20,968 bases of DNA from Cochliopodium minus. Lineage: Eukaryota > Discosea > Himatismenida > Cochliopodiidae. Under the pieces are notes generated by a model that had not been told where the DNA came from, searched no databases, and worked only from the letters and a program-made list of their open reading frames with translations. The stretch is from the NCBI GenBank assembly GCA_024220525.1, contig JAMYWO010000046.1:155414-176381 (forward strand). The letters are read 5' to 3'. The translations under genes and the position numbers were made by a program. Shown in pieces: positions 3,327 through 20,968 of this stretch (position 1 is the stretch's first letter; each line of letters starts with the position of its first letter).

Positions 3327-5083
3327 TTAATTATTCTCCATGTGCTCTTGAAGAACATTGACAGCTTCTTCAATCTTTTTGACGAGTTCTTGTTGATCTT
3401 CAATAAGATTGATGAGTTCGTGTTCATCAAGGGATTCGAGAAGCATACCAGTGATTTTTCCAGCATCATTGAAGTTGATTTGAGGATTTTGTTTGAAGAA
3501 ATTTTCAATATTTTGATAAAGTACATCACCGATGATTCTCTTCTTTTGTTCAGGATCTTGGGTGTTATTGATGATTGAGAAAATGTTGTTAATGTTGGAT
3601 TGTTCAACATTAGGATTGTTTCTTGTTTGATTCATTTGATGAGGATTCTTTTTTCTGTAATTGTTGTTGTTTAATTGATTGTTGTTAGGACCTCTGTTGT
3701 TGTTAGGATAACGTTTGTTCATGTAAGGCATGTTTCCTCTGTTGTTGTTGTTGTTGAATTGGTTATTGTTATTGTTATTATTATTATTAAAAGGGAGTCC
3801 ACCAGTCATGTTATTCTTTCCGATTCTGTGAGAGTATTGGGCTTGGAGTTGAGCAGTTCTGATTTCTTTTCTTTGAGCCAAAGCAACATACAAAGGCTTG
3901 TTGAAAAGCATTCTTCCATTCAATTCAGTAGCAGCCTTTTGTGCATCTTCAGGGGAAGCAAAGCAAACAAAACCGAAACCCTTACTTACATTGTTGTCGT
4001 CACGCATTACCCTAGAGGAAGTGATATCACCATAAGAAGAAAACAATTCGAGGAGTTTTTTATCATCAATTTGATCGTCCAAGTTCTTAATGTAAAGATT
4101 AGAATCTTGAAATTTCAATTTTCTCTCTTCAAATTGCTTTCTCAATTGGCTTAATCTCTCACTCTTCTTTTGGGCCTTTGCGACGTAGACCTTGGTACCA
4201 AGAAATTCTTTTTCGTGTAATTCTTCGACCGCTTTGATGGCAGCTTCAGGAGTCTTGTAGTTGATGAAACCAAATCCCTTGCTTATTTTGTTATCATCAA
4301 ACATAATGACTAAAGAAGTGATCTCTCCATATTGTGAAAACTTTTCTTTCAATTCATTCTCTGAAATTTTTGGATTCAAATTCTTTACAAAAATGTTTGT
4401 GTACTTTGGAGCATTTGTGGTTTCGACGGAACGTTGCTTTTTATTTTTGAAATGGGTTACACTGATTTTTTTACCTTCCAATTCAATCCCGTTTGTTCCA
4501 TCAATTGCCTTTTGTGCTGCCTCCATGTTCTCAAAATGGACATATCCGAACCCTTTGCTTACGCCGTTGGTATCAGTCTCAACTTTGCAAGATAAGATGG
4601 TACCGAATTGGGAGAAATTATCGTAAAGATCTTGACTTTGAATTGATGGATGCAAATCTTTAATGAAAATATTTCCCACTCCACTCTTTCTAATGTATGG
4701 ATCACGTTGAGACCACATGATACGACATGGTTTAACCCCTTTTAAAATTATTAAATAATTTTTTATCTCAAAGAAAAAATATTTTATAATTTATTTGCTG
4801 CTATTCAATATCTCTTATAAAAATGAAAATTACCAATGATAGGTGTGTAATTCAAGGTATCAATTGCTCTTTCTGCATCTTCAACTCTATGATAATTGAC
4901 GTAAGCATATCCAAGAGATCTTCTTGTACTAGAATCTCTGCAAACACGAATGGATGCAACTGGACCAACTTTTCTGAAAACATCGAAAAGTACTGATTCT
5001 GTAACATTTTGTTCAAGATCTCCAACATAGAGGGATCCAGTTTGGAAACTAGTCTGGTTTGGGGTTTGGTTCTCAGGGTTCAT
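3327..5083 (-). CDS. PABPC: Cytoplasmic polyadenylate-binding protein, 2 exons
   Basis: Binds mRNA poly(A) tails and links them to translation initiation and deadenylation factors. Exon 1 is 5083-4834 and exon 2 is 4738-3327; the 95-bp intron splits a glycine codon inside RRM1 (...[18 protein letters not shown]). The product is 553 residues. Four RRMs are visible at about 18-93, 105-180, 197-272 and 296-371, each with an RNP1-like block ([36 protein letters not shown]). A linker rich in Asn (about 398-470) takes the place of the usual Pro/Gln-rich region. A C-terminal MLLE peptide-binding domain (about 475-550) keeps the diagnostic KITGMLLE at 511-518, so the usual PAM2-partner docking is likely conserved. 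Start: the ATG at 5083 is followed by MNPENQTPN and then SLYVGDL, as in the family. It is divergent from WDR82, 134 bp away. Confidence 0.96.
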
Positions 5084-11695: not shown

Positions 11696-12646
11696 ATGTT
11701 TCAAACAAGGTATTTAGTATAAGATTTTATTCAAAGACAAATTTTTAATTTTACATAAAATTTCTTTTTAGGAGCGAATATGATAGAGGTGTAAATACAT
11801 TCAGCCCTGAAGGGCGTTTATTTCAAGTTGAATATGCAATAGAAGCAATCAAAGTAAATAATTTAAAAAAATGAATACACCATATAATTTACAATCCATT
11901 GTTAATAATATCTAATTATAATGAATAATTATTGTAAAGAAAAATTAAATATCATGAAATAACAAAATCATTTATATAATTAGTTGGGATCAACTGCAGT
12001 TGGAATTAAAACAAAAGAAGGTATTATATTGGCAGCAGAAAAAAGAGTACAATCAAAATTGATGGTGCCATCCAGTATCGAAAAAATTATGGAGATAGAT
12101 TCACATATTGGAGCAGCAATGAGTGGATTGATAGGAGATGCAAGAACATTGATTGAGCATGCAAGAGTAGAAGGACAACATCATAGATTCACATACGACG
12201 AACCAATAACTGGATACTCTGTCAGTCAATCCATTTGCGATCTATGTCTCAAATTTGGAGAAGATAAAAAAAGAGAAAGACAAATGAGTAGACCTTTTGG
12301 TGTTGCATTACTTGTTGGTGCAGTTGATGAAAATGGACCTGTATTATATCATACCGATCCTTCTGGTACATTTTTGGAATTTGATGTAAAGGCTATTGGT
12401 GCTGGTAGTGAAGGTGCTCAATCCTTTCTTCTTGAGGAATACAATAAATCTCTCACCTTGAAGGAAGCTGAGATTCTTGCTCTCAAAACTTTGAAAGAGG
12501 TTATGGAGGAAAAAATTAATTCTACTAATGTTGAAATTTGCTCTATTATCCCAACTGAAAACAAAAAGGAGGGAAAATTTAGACTTTATTCTTATCAGGA
12601 AATTGAAAAATTGTTGGAACAAATTCCTTCCAAGAATAACAACTAA
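11696..12646 (+). CDS. PSMA5: 20S proteasome subunit alpha type-5, 3 exons
   Basis: Structural alpha-ring subunit of the 20S proteasome core; alpha subunits gate the pore and have no peptidase site. Exons: 11696-11709 (14 nt, MFQTR with the last codon split), 11772-11853, 11984-12646; the total is 252 residues (human alpha-5 is 241). The alpha-5 N-terminus [19 protein letters not shown] then [12 protein letters not shown] is nearly canonical and carries the proteasome alpha signature. Further alpha-5 blocks are [69 protein letters not shown] and [18 protein letters not shown]. The C-terminal tail IPSKNNN is a little longer than usual. The tiny first exon ends in the arginine of TRSEYDR and would be missed by a plain open-frame scan. 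Confidence 0.96.
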
Positions 12647-12763: not shown

Positions 12764-13891
12764 ATGAATATGGAAGGAGAAGTAAGTCCATTGGTAATTG
12801 ATAATGGATCAGGAATGATTAAAGCAGGATTTGCAGGAGATGATGCTCCAAGAGCAGTATTTCCTTCAATTGTGGGAAGACCAAGAACCATAAGGGGAAA
12901 TATAGGACTAAAAGATAGATATGTGGGAGATGAAGGTTGCTATAAGAGGGGGATTTTGACATTGAAATATCCAATTGAAAAGGGAATGATTATAGATTGG
13001 TATGATATGGAAAAGATTTGGCATCATATCTTTTATAATGAATCGGGGGTCGCACCAGAAGAACATCCTGTACTTTTGAGTGAAATTTCATTAAATTTAA
13101 AAAAGAATAGAGAACAAACAACACAGATAATGTTTGAAAACTTTAATACTCCTTCAATTTATCTTTCAAATCAATCAGTTCTTTCTCTGTATGCATCTGG
13201 TCGTAAAAGTGGTGTTGTTGTAGGTGTTGGAGAAGGAGTATCAGAAATAGCACCTGTTTATGAGGGTTTGACACTTTCGAATGTTGTTTTTGAAATGGAT
13301 GTTTCAGGAAGAGATCTCACAAGTTATTTGATGAAAATTTTGACAGAAAGAGGATATCAATTCACAACAAGTGCAGAAAAGGAAATAGTGAGAGATATCA
13401 AAGAAAAACTTTGTTATGTTTCTTTTGATTTTCAAAAAGAAATGTTTCTTTCTGAAAGTTCTTCTTCCTTTGAAAAAAAATATGAACTTCCTGATGGAGA
13501 AATAATAAGAATTGGAAACGAAAGGTTTAGATGTGCTGAATCTCTTTTCCAACCTTCATTCTTGGGAATGGAAATCGATGGGATTCATACTTCTTTGTAC
13601 AACTCTATTTTGAATTGTGAGATTTCAGTGAGAAAAGATTTGTTTGGAAATATTGTTCTTTCAGGAGGTTCAACTATGTTTCCTGGTATTGGTGAAAGAA
13701 TTCAAAAAGAGATCATTTCTCTTTCTCCTTCAACAACAAAAGTCAAAGTAATAAGCCCTCCTGAAAGAAAGTATTCTGTATGGATTGGAGGTTCTATTTT
13801 TGCTTCTCTTTCTTCTTTTCGACAAACTTGGATTTCCAAAAAGGACTATGATGAATATGGTCCCTTTATTGTGAATGTGAAGTGTTTTTGA
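12764..13891 (+). CDS. Divergent actin, intronless, with altered nucleotide-site residues
   Basis: Actin-fold protein of 375 residues from the ATG at 12764, colinear with conventional actin: [107 protein letters not shown] and the terminal KCF. The phosphate loop 1 Asp (actin D11) and Gln137 ([15 protein letters not shown]) remain. Phosphate loop 2, normally MDSGDGVTH, reads VGVGEGVSE here: by alignment D154 is Gly, D157 is Glu and H161 is Glu. The methylated His73 is Lys (PIEKG), and the DNase-binding loop is two residues shorter and different ([13 protein letters not shown]). It is too close to actin to be a standard Arp, yet unlikely to hydrolyse ATP normally. The frame is intact over its whole length, and its stop is the only TGA in the window, so it looks like a functional paralogue rather than a pseudogene. 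Confidence 0.92.
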
Positions 13892-14011
13892 ATTAAAAAA
13901 AATGGTTGTAAATAAAGATTCTTTTGATTCATTTTTTTTTTTGAATGAAAATAAAAGAAATAAAAGGATTTATAAAAAAAAAAAAAAAAAAAAATTGAAT
14001 CATAAGAAATA
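13892..14011. other. Short spacer with AATAAA and poly(A) tract after actin
   Basis: The 120-bp spacer after the actin stop holds an AATAAA at 13911-13916, a plausible polyadenylation signal, and an uninterrupted A run at about 13975-13994. In DNA this AT-rich the hexamer carries little weight on its own. Confidence 0.25.
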
Positions 14012-15241
14012 ATGAAAAATTTACCCTTCTTTTTGATTTGCCATATATCCTCATTTCTTCCTATTAAATCTGTATTAGAATTTGGTTTAACAAGCAAACA
14101 ATATTCAAAGATCCTCTCTAGTGAATTTTTGTGGATGGGTATCGCAAGGAGGGAATTTGGAGAAATGGAGAAATTAGGAATTAATGGAACATGGAAGCAA
14201 AGAGTGAAAAATGGTTTTTTCGAATGGGATGTTGAAAATTTCTCAAATAAAAATTTGGAGGTAAATTCATTAATATTTGAATTCATTTTTAAAAAATTTT
14301 TATTGGGGACATAGTTCTCACATGATAATAAAAGGGTCAATTATAAAAAAGGAGGACATGGTAAAATTTTTTATTTTTGAGAAATATAGAAGTGAAAATA
14401 AACATTATAATTTGATCTTTATAAAATAGATGCTATATTATTGTTCTAAATTAAATCATCCTTTGATTTTTCGATCAAAGCTTTTTATTTAAAAATTATT
14501 TTAAAAGGGTTATCATCGACTGTCTCGAAAAAAGTTTTTTATAATATTGGAATTTACACACTCAAAATGTAAAAAAAAAAATTAATCTTGTCATCAAATT
14601 TTTTAAAACTTTTCTTTAGAGAGTGCTTTACCCAAATAAGGGGTTGCAATTCTTTTGGTGACAAAAATTCTTTTTTTCTTATATTTTTTTTCCATTTTAA
14701 CTTTGTTTTTAAGCATTGGTGGACAGCCAGTACGTTCAAAACGACGATTACACATGTAGTGATCATGGATTAGGATTTACAAATTCTTATGTGGCTGCTT
14801 CTTCTGTTCTCAGCACTTACAGGTATCTTTTAACTATCAATAAAATATAAAAAAAAAAAAAATTTATAATAAAAAATATGTTGAAATTTAAATTAAAATA
14901 ATAAATGTTATCAAAATTTTCCAACAGAGGAAGACTCAAAGAGTTCGTCGCAGTTAAATCCATATTAATTTTGGAAATTGATATTAAAAACAGAGGTAAC
15001 AAATTTATTTCTTTTTTTTTTAAATTTTTAATAATTAATTTTAATTTTTTTTTTTACAGTATGGACCACTTACTTTGAAAATGATCCTCATTCTGAAAAT
15101 AAGAACATAATGTCTCTCAAAAAAATAGATTTTGAAAATGGTCTGCGATTTGCCATTACCTTCAACCACGAAAATGATTATTGTCATGTTTTAAGCATGA
15201 ATTTTCGTGAGAACGCTCCCAAAGATATTAACAAATGTTAA
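14012..15241 (+). CDS. F-box protein with possible SPRY-like C-terminal domain, 7 exons
   Basis: The N-terminal 50 residues form an F-box (NLPFFLICHISSFLPIKS then VLEFGLTSKQYSKILSSEFLWMGIARREFG), so it probably docks on SKP1 in an SCF ubiquitin ligase. Exons: 14012-14260, 14315-14360, 14508-14568, 14620-14657, 14714-14822, 14928-14995, 15060-15241. Phases (0,1,2,1,2,1) all agree and give 250 residues ending NKC. The C-terminal part reads as beta-rich sequence (YNIGIYTLKIECFTQIRGC, HGLGFTNSYVAASS, KSILILEIDIKNRVWTTYFEND, GLRFAITFNHENDYCHVL). That order, including the LEIDIKNRVWTTYFEND strand pair, recalls SPRY/B30.2 or concanavalin-like folds, a weak inference. The substrate is unknown. Intron 4 uses a GTGACA donor. 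Exons 2-4 are short and rest on phase continuity alone. Confidence 0.72.
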
Positions 15242-17314: not shown

Positions 17315-17430
17315 GTTGCAGTTATTAAAATAAAATTTTTCGGTTTGAAAATTCATTTATCATTTTGATATATTAAAATTATAAATTGCTTTTTTTAAAT
17401 AAGAATGATTATAATAAAAATAAAAAAAAA

Positions 17431-20400
17431 ATGCAATTAAATATTCAAAATCTTGAAGATATAATCAACAATTTCTTTAATCCTAAAATCCCTCAAGATA
17501 GAGAAAATGCAGAGAAGGAAATGAACAAGATCAAGAATTCAAAGGAAGCTATTGATATCTCTCAACAATTAATTATGTCTAAAAATAACAATACAAGATG
17601 GTTTGGTGGGGAGGTGATTTTAACCTACACTAAAAATATGATCAAAGAAAATATAATAAAAGATTTAGCCTCAATCAAAAGCAAAATTGGTAATATATCT
17701 TCTTTTGTGATGAATTATATGATGAAAGCATATCCATATCTAAGTTCATTTGCTTCATCCAAATTTATAGAGGTATTGGTGTTATGCTTTTCTGTTGATT
17801 TGAATAATAACACAAAAGAACAAAGTGATAAATTTTTTACGAGTTTCATTCAATTTTCAATGGATAATGAGAAAGAAAAATTTGCATTTGCTTTGTTGAA
17901 AGCGATGATAGAAGAATATAGTGGAGAAAATGAATTGAAAATGTTCACAAGCATTTATAAAAAATCAATTAGGACATCTTTCACCCAATCCATGCCTCTT
18001 ATCTTCAATTATCTGGTAAAAAGCGCCACCACAAAGAGTGATGAAATTTTAAAGATAACATTGGAATGTATCCTGATTATTTTCAAGGCTTTTAACTTTG
18101 AAAATGTGATAAAAGACAACATGTTAGCAGAAACCCTCTTCAATAAACTAATTGGTCTTTTGATGGGAGAGAAAGAAAAGATATGTGAAGCCTCCTTTGA
18201 CATTTTCATAGAAATCGTGACCAAAAAGACAATACCCACGCATCACCACCCCATCCTCTTCTCCATTTTCCAAAAACTCATCTCTATACTTTCTTCATAC
18301 ACAAGCAACACCAACGTGGAATCTCCTTTCAAAAGTAACTTTGATGGTCATAAAGATCCTTTCTCCCCATTTCAACAAGCCTCCTCTCCTTTTCAGTCTC
18401 CATCTCCTTTCCAACAAGCCTCCTCTCCTTTTCCTCCCTCTATTATCAATCCCAACGTAAATTCTCCTTTCGACAACACCAACCCCTTCAACAGCCCCTC
18501 TTCTCCATTTGACCCACCTCGTTCCCCTTTTGATAAACCCAACATGTTCAACATCCCCTCCATCAATCGTTCCTTTTTCAAAAAGTTGAACATCTTTTTT
18601 TCTCTTTTCATTGAAAATTATCTCCTCCAAATCATTCTTAACAACCCCAATTCTCATTTTGAGACTATTTTCAGCACTCTCTTCAGTTACACGAGTCTCC
18701 AAAAGGGATCTTCTTTTTATTGTGACACATTGCAAATTTGGTCTTCCTTTATCAGATTTTTGCTCGAAAACTCCAACACCGACTTGCAAGGTCTCAATTC
18801 TAAACAAAAAGTGGAGAAAATCACTCAAATCAAAAAAGAAAACACAAGTACATTTGTCAATCTTTTTAATCTTTTGTATTCCAACCTTTTCTTCAGTGAA
18901 AACCCCAAACAACTCCAAAACTTCATCAACGAGTCTGACGATTCATTCGAAGACATTTCCGGTTTTGACGATTCCCTCCAAAGCGAAAACGAAAATGAGA
19001 ACAACACGGAAGATTATGGAAGGCCCCTTTTCTATTCCAACTTTATCAAAGTTTCCATTTACTTGCTCACCAACATTTCACTCTTGTACCCCGAGTCCAT
19101 TTCTGTTTTTTACCAAAATTTTATTCCAAAGTTTGTTTCTTTAGAAAAATCTGAAATTTTAAACAATTATTTGAGTAATCCCAACAACCCAAACTCTTTC
19201 AATCTCGTACAAAAAAACGAGCATTTAGCAATGATTGTCAACGATCTCACCACTCAAACAGAATTGTTTTCTGGTTTGGTTACCACCATCACTGAAAAAG
19301 TGTTTGATAAGAGCTATGTTACCACCTTCAAAACCATTTCTGAAATGATCAACTTTTCTGTTAACTTTTATTCCAAAAACAAGCTTTTTTCCATTTCCCC
19401 TTTGTTTCAATTTTTGGGAGCTTCTTTTTTGGGTACGATCAGATCGCTCACTAATTGGTTTTACAAATCCTTTTTTTCCACCATGCCAAAGAACCAAGTG
19501 AACAATTCTACCATGGAGGAGTCTCTCAAGTTTTCCATTTGGGCTTGTTCCCTTTATTTTGTTCACTATGATAAACAAAACTTTGATGTCCCTCAAATCA
19601 TTCTCAAAAGTGCTTCAAAAGCACTCCAGTACATTTCCAACACTTTAAAAACACCAGCCATGTGCATGTCTTTCAATCAGCTCATCGGAAACTCACCCAA
19701 AATATTTCCGCTCTTTTCAAGTGTTTCTCTGAAATCCCTCTTCTTTTCCTCACTGCACTCTTTTGCCTTGTTACCCAACTTGGAAGAGAATTCGCCTCAA
19801 GACAATAAACCCAACCCCAAAAAACTAAAGGTCCTTTACGACACTTTCCTCATTTCCATTGAACAAAACATTAATAATCCTAACGTCGTGGGTGATGATC
19901 TCGAAATCATAAGAAAAGGGGTAGATCAAGTGAGGGAGCACAACTTATCTTCTAAAAGCATCATTTTTGAACTTACACGCCAACCTTTTTTGACAGTTTT
20001 AAAGCAATTTCCCATTTTCTTGTCAAATTGTTATTCACAAAACAACCTCATATCTAATGGTCCCATCTTAAAATGTTGTGAACAATTTCTCAATTTTTTT
20101 GTTTCTTCTTTTTACTCTCTTTCCTCTCTTTATGGACACACCAATATCACCAAGTGCATTGAAACTTTGTTGTCTCCTCTCCAGCCTCTCATCCCTTTTC
20201 TTTCAGTAAATCATCCTCCTCTCATCAAACTCTTTTTATCTTTGCTCAATCTCTTTGACTTTATTGCAGATCATGTTTCTTCTCATTTCTACTCTCTTTT
20301 TCTCCCCATTTTTGTTCTTTTAAATAAACTCTTCCCTTTAATTTCTCAACCTCATTTGTTGGATCTAAAACGTTCCTACTTTGTTATTTTTTACAAGTTT

Positions 20401-20868
20401 CTTCTCAATCACTTGAGGACTTTAGAGAAAATCTCTCTTAAAGAAGAATTCTTATCCTTGTCCATTCTTAAAATATACTCTCAATCAATCTTACAAAGTG
20501 AAGATGAACTAGAAATAATGAGAGAGAATATCAATCGTTTCTTGCTTCTCGACCAAAAAATCATGCTTTTTTCAAAACCTTATTTCAAGGAAAATATTTA
20601 TTTTTCTTTTGTTAGTGGTATTTTCGACTTACTTGCGGCCAAAAGAACCAATCTTGCGAAAGACGAGTATATCGAACTTTTGTACAATATTGCAAAAATA
20701 GATTTCGAGATATTTTTCAAAAAATTTTTGATTTCTTATCTCCAATCAAAATCTTTTGACAACAATTACAAAACTTATCTTTTCAATCAATTTAAAAGTG
20801 ATACAGATTCTCCTAGTTTCAAGATTAATTGCTCAAATTTTGTTGATGATTTATCATTATTAAATTAA
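17431..20868 (+). CDS. XPO6: Exportin-6 (importin-beta family), intronless
   Basis: Nuclear export receptor, 1145 residues from the first in-frame ATG at 17431 (MQLNIQNLEDIINNFFNP); human XPO6 is about 1125. In animals exportin-6 carries actin-profilin out of the nucleus with RanGTP. The N-terminal helices fit an importin-beta N-terminal domain (LEDIINNFFNP...ENAEKEMNKIK...WFGGEVI). The middle has YTSLQKGSSFYCDTLQIWSSF, matching the family's YFSCLDIWTLF block. The C-terminus, YNIAKIDFEIFFKKFL...FKSDTDSPSFKINCSNFVDDLSLL, lines up with human IYNMASVDFDGFFAAFL...FKMDRDLPSFTQNVHRLVNDL, which decides XPO6 over other exportins. Residues about 296-378 form a Pro/Ser/Phe-rich loop with eight SPF motifs plus NPF and DPF. 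An acidic loop (about 505-530) also occurs in human XPO6. The 3.4-kb frame has no intron. Confidence 0.88.
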   Translation: MQLNIQNLEDIINNFFNPKIPQDRENAEKEMNKIKNSKEAIDISQQLIMSKNNNTRWFGGEVILTYTKNMIKENIIKDLASIKSKIGNISSFVMNYMMKAYPYLSSFASSKFIEVLVLCFSVDLNNNTKEQSDKFFTSFIQFSMDNEKEKFAFALLKAMIEEYSGENELKMFTSIYKKSIRTSFTQSMPLIFNYLVKSATTKSDEILKITLECILIIFKAFNFENVIKDNMLAETLFNKLIGLLMGEKEKICEASFDIFIEIVTKKTIPTHHHPILFSIFQKLISILSSYTSNTNVESPFKSNFDGHKDPFSPFQQASSPFQSPSPFQQASSPFPPSIINPNVNSPFDNTNPFNSPSSPFDPPRSPFDKPNMFNIPSINRSFFKKLNIFFSLFIENYLLQIILNNPNSHFETIFSTLFSYTSLQKGSSFYCDTLQIWSSFIRFLLENSNTDLQGLNSKQKVEKITQIKKENTSTFVNLFNLLYSNLFFSENPKQLQNFINESDDSFEDISGFDDSLQSENENENNTEDYGRPLFYSNFIKVSIYLLTNISLLYPESISVFYQNFIPKFVSLEKSEILNNYLSNPNNPNSFNLVQKNEHLAMIVNDLTTQTELFSGLVTTITEKVFDKSYVTTFKTISEMINFSVNFYSKNKLFSISPLFQFLGASFLGTIRSLTNWFYKSFFSTMPKNQVNNSTMEESLKFSIWACSLYFVHYDKQNFDVPQIILKSASKALQYISNTLKTPAMCMSFNQLIGNSPKIFPLFSSVSLKSLFFSSLHSFALLPNLEENSPQDNKPNPKKLKVLYDTFLISIEQNINNPNVVGDDLEIIRKGVDQVREHNLSSKSIIFELTRQPFLTVLKQFPIFLSNCYSQNNLISNGPILKCCEQFLNFFVSSFYSLSSLYGHTNITKCIETLLSPLQPLIPFLSVNHPPLIKLFLSLLNLFDFIADHVSSHFYSLFLPIFVLLNKLFPLISQPHLLDLKRSYFVIFYKFLLNHLRTLEKISLKEEFLSLSILKIYSQSILQSEDELEIMRENINRFLLLDQKIMLFSKPYFKENIYFSFVSGIFDLLAAKRTNLAKDEYIELLYNIAKIDFEIFFKKFLISYLQSKSFDNNYKTYLFNQFKSDTDSPSFKINCSNFVDDLSLLN
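18373..18433 (+). repeat. Coding tandem repeat (39-bp period) in the SPF loop
   Basis: The 22-bp word beginning caacaagcctcctctccttt occurs at 18373 and again at 18412. That 39-bp, 13-codon period encodes QQASSPFQ and QQASSPFP. The period keeps the frame, so the SPF-rich loop of exportin-6 has grown at least partly by tandem duplication. Confidence 0.8.
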
Positions 20869-20892
20869 TTTATATAAAATTTATTATTATAA

Positions 20893-20955
20893 CCCTAACG
20901 TATAGGAAACAGCCTGTTTTCACTCAAAATACAGATAGTTAACAGGGAGCAACAG
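20893..20955 (-). repeat. 63-bp repeat, right copy, inverted relative to 53-115
   Basis: Reverse complement of 53-115 with one mismatch. It starts 24 bp after the exportin-6 stop codon, so it lies in the 3' UTR or terminator region of that gene. Outside it only 13 bp remain, and these do not match the left flank. The unit holds AACAG words and CCCTAACG at its inner edge. Confidence 0.9.
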
Positions 20956-20968
20956 GGTGCCATTATAA

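Follow-up and report, generated by a model that had tools for sequence, protein, structure and literature searches.

An intact, selectively maintained actin paralogue of Cochliopodium minus with substitutions at the sites of ATP hydrolysis and phosphate release

The window analysed here is the whole stretch C46:155414-176381 (20,968 nucleotides) of the Cochliopodium minus genome, which was available as 44.65 Mb in 598 contigs; positions without a contig prefix are those of the window. A divergent, intron-free actin gene lies on the forward strand at 12764..13891, where an open frame runs from an ATG at 12764 to a stop codon at 13889-13891 and encodes 375 amino acids. An alternative in-frame ATG at 12770 would start the protein as MEGEVSPL; the first ATG was favoured because a partial second copy of the gene has GTG at the codon of the second. 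A candidate polyadenylation signal, recognised by its motif (AATAAA, 13911..13916, forward strand), lies 20 bases 3′ of the stop. The window also holds a poly(A)-binding-like protein with RRM and MLLE domains (3327-4718, reverse strand), a proteasome subunit (11984-12646) and an F-box start (14012-14314), and no functional tie of these neighbours to actin was seen. An ARAGORN scan of the window returned no tRNA. The 1160-aa frame at 17386-20868, which had no Pfam or PDB match, presumably resembles a helical-repeat nuclear transport receptor, judged by eye.

The predicted protein matched the Pfam Actin family (PF00022) over residues 6-375 with 425.7 bits, against a curated cut-off of 27, and its score across the whole fold places it in the actin superfamily. 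The 60 listed of its 170 PDB matches were actins or actin chimeras (top score 588 bits). The canonical actin at C53 (L001) served as the conventional reference from the same genome; its best PDB match was 4efh, labelled Actin-1, which we take to be Acanthamoeba actin. The window protein was identical to L001 at 259/375 positions (69%), a divergence of 31%, and the initial annotation of the gene as an intact actin paralogue of 375 residues was borne out. Single-sequence structure prediction gave a mean pLDDT of 30.3 and no usable model.

Alignment to L001 upheld the substitutions first listed for the ATPase site and showed the alteration to be wider (all of the following features are on the forward strand). 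Phosphate loop 1 (DNGSGMIK, canonical residues 11-18, 12800..12823) retains D11 and carries one conservative change, V17I. Q137 (13172..13174) is likewise kept, between the substitutions I136N and A138S. Phosphate loop 2 (residues 153-161, 13220..13246) reads VGVGEGVSE where L001 has LDSGDGVSH, giving D154G, S155V, D157E and H161E; the annotation had set this loop against MDSGDGVTH, and its changes at 154, 157 and 161 hold, but Ser 160 is common to the window protein and L001 and is no change relative to the organism's own conventional actin. Lys replaces H73 of the sensor loop and back door (12980..12982), as it does in C125:112835, C16 and C20. Beyond the earlier list, Glu replaces R177 at the back-door gate (13292..13294), and the proline-rich loop (residues 107-112, 13082..13099) reads EISLNL instead of EAPLNP (A108I, P109S and P112L, with N111 kept). 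The D-loop region (canonical 38-53, 12881..12922) is, as claimed, two residues shorter than that of L001 and devoid of methionine, and 8 of its 14 aligned positions are changed in addition to the two deletions.

The main actin is free of the window-gene substitutions, being canonical at those sites (H73, Q137 and R177 in L001; K73, Q137 and E177 in the window protein). Among Q137, D154, H161 and H73, which were taken together as the mark of a conventional actin, only Q137 is retained; the C-terminal KCF is retained as well. When compared with the actin signature patterns quoted in PMC1852557, the window protein matched signature 2 and did not match signatures 1 and 3. With the garbled spacer of signature 3 taken as two residues, L001 did not match it either; with Pro permitted at one place, L001 matched and the window protein still did not.

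A six-frame profile search of the contigs yielded 83 Pfam actin-family matches, counted exon by exon, and the loci were merged into 28 stretches and aligned with a purpose-written spliced aligner; the 28 leave out other matches, such as those on C212, C450, C116, C157 and C195. Loop 2 was readable in 24 actin-like stretches, a count that includes C16, C20 and C182, which are disabled or fragmentary, and D154 or H161 was missing in 17/24. These 17 include the window gene, C16, C20 and C9, of which the C9 model probably fuses two tandem paralogues and is an unreliable row. Both residues were kept in 7/24, namely C53, C99, the C182 fragment, C87, C125:79712, C153 and C48, the last two of which we take, by eye, to resemble Arp2 and Arp3. 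Degenerate catalytic loops thus occur widely among the actin-like stretches, which makes the window gene less surprising than it first appeared: it is intact, but the picture of a single odd paralogue gives way to one member of a large family. The viral contigs scanned yielded no relative. Two further actin 5′ parts, L065 (C139) and L066 (C60), are close in sequence to conventional actin and are broken at an N stretch and a single N, respectively, so that conventional actins may be under-counted.

In a tree of 22 of the family rows and 4efh, with no named Arp sequence included, 5 of the 20 inner branches were well supported. The window gene grouped with C125:112835, C16 and C20 (support 88/89; 100/99 for the inner three) and lay apart from the rows judged by eye to be Arp2-like and Arp3-like. 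L001 paired with 4efh; the two branches were very short (0.013 and 0.016), though the support was weak (87/45). Elsewhere in the tree, the intron-rich actin relatives at C87 (L024/L026) and C125:79712 (L056), with a loop 2 of DIGDGVAH, grouped at 100/100, and C324 (L016/L029), C170 (L019) and C239 (L021) formed a separate, very divergent actin clade (99/97) that retains D154 and has Asn or Asp at 161. All four members of the window-gene clade have K73 and carry Glu or Asp at 177 (E, E, D, D), with S172 and N173 also in common; among 24 rows, an acidic 177 occurred in none outside the clade and K73 outside it only in C63. The pairing of K73 with acidic 177 is no proof of coupling, since the four genes represent one shared history and not independent repeats. 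The nearest relatives found were paralogues of the same genome, which agrees with the suggestion of a lineage-specific form as far as a search covering one species can.

The relatives C20 and C16 look disabled, which raises the possibility that the window gene, too, is a duplicate in decay, without a functional active site and on course to become a pseudogene. A codon model was fitted on seven genes and the omega of each branch compared with 1. The window branch had an omega of 0.12 (2dlnL 52 versus 1), and its omega was 0.07-0.10 (2dlnL 37-57) across four reduced variants, of which one used a different topology. Omega was 0.20 for C125:112835 (2dlnL 16), 0.13 for C376 (2dlnL 66) and 0.019 for conventional actin. 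Neutrality was not rejected for C20, which has stops and a broken frame (0.55, 2dlnL 2.6), or for C16, in which the frame breaks close to the 5′ end (0.83, 2dlnL 0.03). The window-branch dS of about 1 makes its omega approximate, but it differs plainly from that of the broken copies. Thus the window protein is under purifying selection, some six times less strict than that on the main actin; as a gene-wide average, omega gives no sign that the active-site changes are adaptive. The proposal that selection has kept this actin was sustained, and a relaxed dN/dS near 1 is excluded. The share of C-ending codons was 0.12 in the window gene against 0.40 in conventional actin, a weak codon bias that hints at low or modest expression and would also suit a decaying copy. 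Nevertheless, with neutrality rejected in all five analyses and a frame open throughout, decay is very improbable.

The distribution of changes over the nucleotide site was examined with two residue sets, 27 for hydrolysis and release and 20 for holding nucleotide, which were picked after the changes were seen and are in part provisional. In these post-hoc sets, the window protein was changed at 15/27 and 2/20 positions, respectively, and at 89/312 of the others. The release set was changed more than the holding set (P 0.002) and more than the rest (P 0.008), given the post-hoc choice; conservation of the holding set did not significantly exceed that of the rest (P 0.12). The same comparison in nine other paralogues found the release set changed beyond the rest in C62 (24/27, P 0.0004), less than the rest in C99 (P 0.04) and C87 (P 0.03), and no different from it in the remaining six; in C87 and C62 it was the holding set that had changed less than the rest (P 0.02 and 0.04, respectively). 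D154 and H161 being absent and nucleotide-holding residues present, the window protein has the sequence profile of an ATPase-dead actin.

Hydrolysis of ATP serves as the clock of an actin filament. In PMC9646518, D154 and H161 are the proposed activators of the attacking water, D154 as proposed proton acceptor, and no ATPase activity could be measured for Q137A/D154A/H161A actin. The human triple mutant binds nucleotide and profilin and polymerises with no appreciable hydrolysis (PMC6867828), and the phosphate back door comprises R177, N111, H73 and G74 (PMC10643162). The residues lost from the window protein are ones that published work ties to hydrolysis and phosphate release, as the initial annotation had it. 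Because two of the three residues of the ATPase mutant are missing and the gate is altered, we favour, with a probability of roughly 0.45, a lineage-specific, selected actin paralogue that would hold nucleotide but be impaired in both hydrolysis and phosphate release, and that may be a minor filament-associated actin. The actin fold appears to be kept, and nucleotide would still be held through the near-intact loop 1, the adenosine side and K336. Loss of the water-activating pair would, by analogy with the published mutants, leave ATP hydrolysis very slow or nil, and the exchange of back-door charges (K73/E177 for H73/R177) would by the same analogy make phosphate release abnormal.

The glutamates at 157 and 161 could partly stand in for the lost groups. 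In a fuller form of this argument, Glu 161 or Glu 157 together with K73/E177 replace the lost residues in a working ATPase of changed mechanism, with altered hydrolysis and release. D157E is conservative, H161E is polar and Q137 is retained, and PMC3510490 describes a low basal ATPase in Arp8, in which Ser replaces H161 and Glu replaces Q137. We consider such an enzyme quite unlikely, as the proposed proton acceptor D154 is Gly and actin without Q137, D154 and H161 lacks measurable ATPase (PMC9646518). For the nucleotide-holding, cycle-defective actin that we prefer, the most likely role, at the level of a guess, would be that of a minor actin, locked to its nucleotide, which joins conventional filaments, caps them or modifies them. 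A bolder version, unlikely as it stands, would combine the rebuilt gate of the clade (K73, E/D177) with the dismantled hydrolysis centre of the window gene in an ATP-locked actin that copolymerises, never ages to ADP, and marks or stabilises filaments.

The surfaces of filament contact were scored with provisional residue sets. In these sets the window protein was changed at 0/9 hinge positions, 0/5 of residues 332-336, 1/9 of residues 191-199, 2/13 of the H-plug, 4/13 of the C-terminus (363-375), 5/19 of the target groove, 11/29 SD3/SD4 longitudinal contacts and 5/9 of the W-loop. The changes in the D-loop, W-loop and SD3/SD4 contacts could block copolymerisation. The largely preserved H-plug and residues 191-199, by contrast, speak for a filament-associated actin, as does the presence of formin, myosin and cofilin families, which matched 48, 76 and 13 stretches of the genome, respectively. 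Elsewhere in the genome, an rRNA pattern had no match, and the hydrogenase family matched twice at a single place on C1, with a 506-aa frame, which gives no reason to suppose an anaerobe.

The altered D-loop, W-loop and longitudinal contacts, and the wide drift of the family away from actin, would also fit an orphan actin-related protein in which nucleotide is structural and which acts as a fixed subunit or scaffold of a nuclear or cortical complex, never entering filaments. There is precedent in PMC3510490, where Arp8 holds ATP tightly with low ATPase and the ATP of Arp4 seems purely structural. This explanation is possible, if somewhat doubtful: the divergence of the window protein from conventional actin is only 31% and it has no insertions, whereas all Dictyostelium Arps but Arp1 contain additional segments (PMC2441452), and the hinge, residues 332-336, most of the H-plug and the C-terminal KCF are preserved.

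Several known systems resemble the window protein in part. Like the engineered ATPase-dead actin, it has lost D154 and H161 with nucleotide-holding residues mostly retained; at the level of sequence, it differs in being natural, in keeping Q137, in standing 31% off its own conventional actin, and in adding H73K, R177E and altered proline-rich and D-loops. Arp4 and Arp8 bind ATP and turn over little or none of it, as is proposed here, and Arp8 also has H73 and H161 replaced; Arp8, however, has insertions and keeps D154 and D157, and the insertion-free window protein is far closer to actin (PMC3510490). By the description in PMC1852557, Paramecium tetraurelia has 30 actin-related genes with several subfamilies short of many nucleotide-site residues, a large divergent family in one protist; that study scores 17 nucleotide-binding residues, whereas here holding mostly stays and hydrolysis and release change. 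The Dictyostelium actinome, including Act31-Act33, is likewise described as 41 actins and Arps with seven potential actin pseudogenes (PMC2441452). Divergent protist actin families are thus already known, and the window gene is a variant of that kind. A shallow literature search found no description of a natural K73/E177 actin. A natural actin that keeps nucleotide without D154 and H161 and with its gate charge swapped would test what the filament clock is for, and would offer ready variants for testing the back-door model; as a non-filament scaffold, it would be one more protist actin turned Arp-like.

The partial second copy (L064, C46:177518-177640, reverse strand) comprises 123 bases that are 96% identical to the start of the window gene. 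It lies inverted beyond the window, 1.1 kb from its end and about 8.2 kb past the window gene, and enters a run of 1136 N that begins at the first base after the window. The readable coding part, 98 bases long, is the same as the window gene over codons 8-32 and departs from it at two codons, each of which encodes a different residue. The sequence suggests that the gene was recently duplicated in inverted orientation; only the start of the copy is readable. No actin 3′ tail on the window side of the gap scored above shuffled sequence (24, against 26-31 for the best ten of 200 shuffles). Actin 5′ pieces apparently fused to long frames (C46:177517, 442 aa; C139:64825, 1201 aa) were rejected as fusions, being actin 5′ ends that enter N stretches. 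The last bases of the window before the gap (20890-20968) contain a repeated AACAGGG motif and are less AT-rich than their surroundings.
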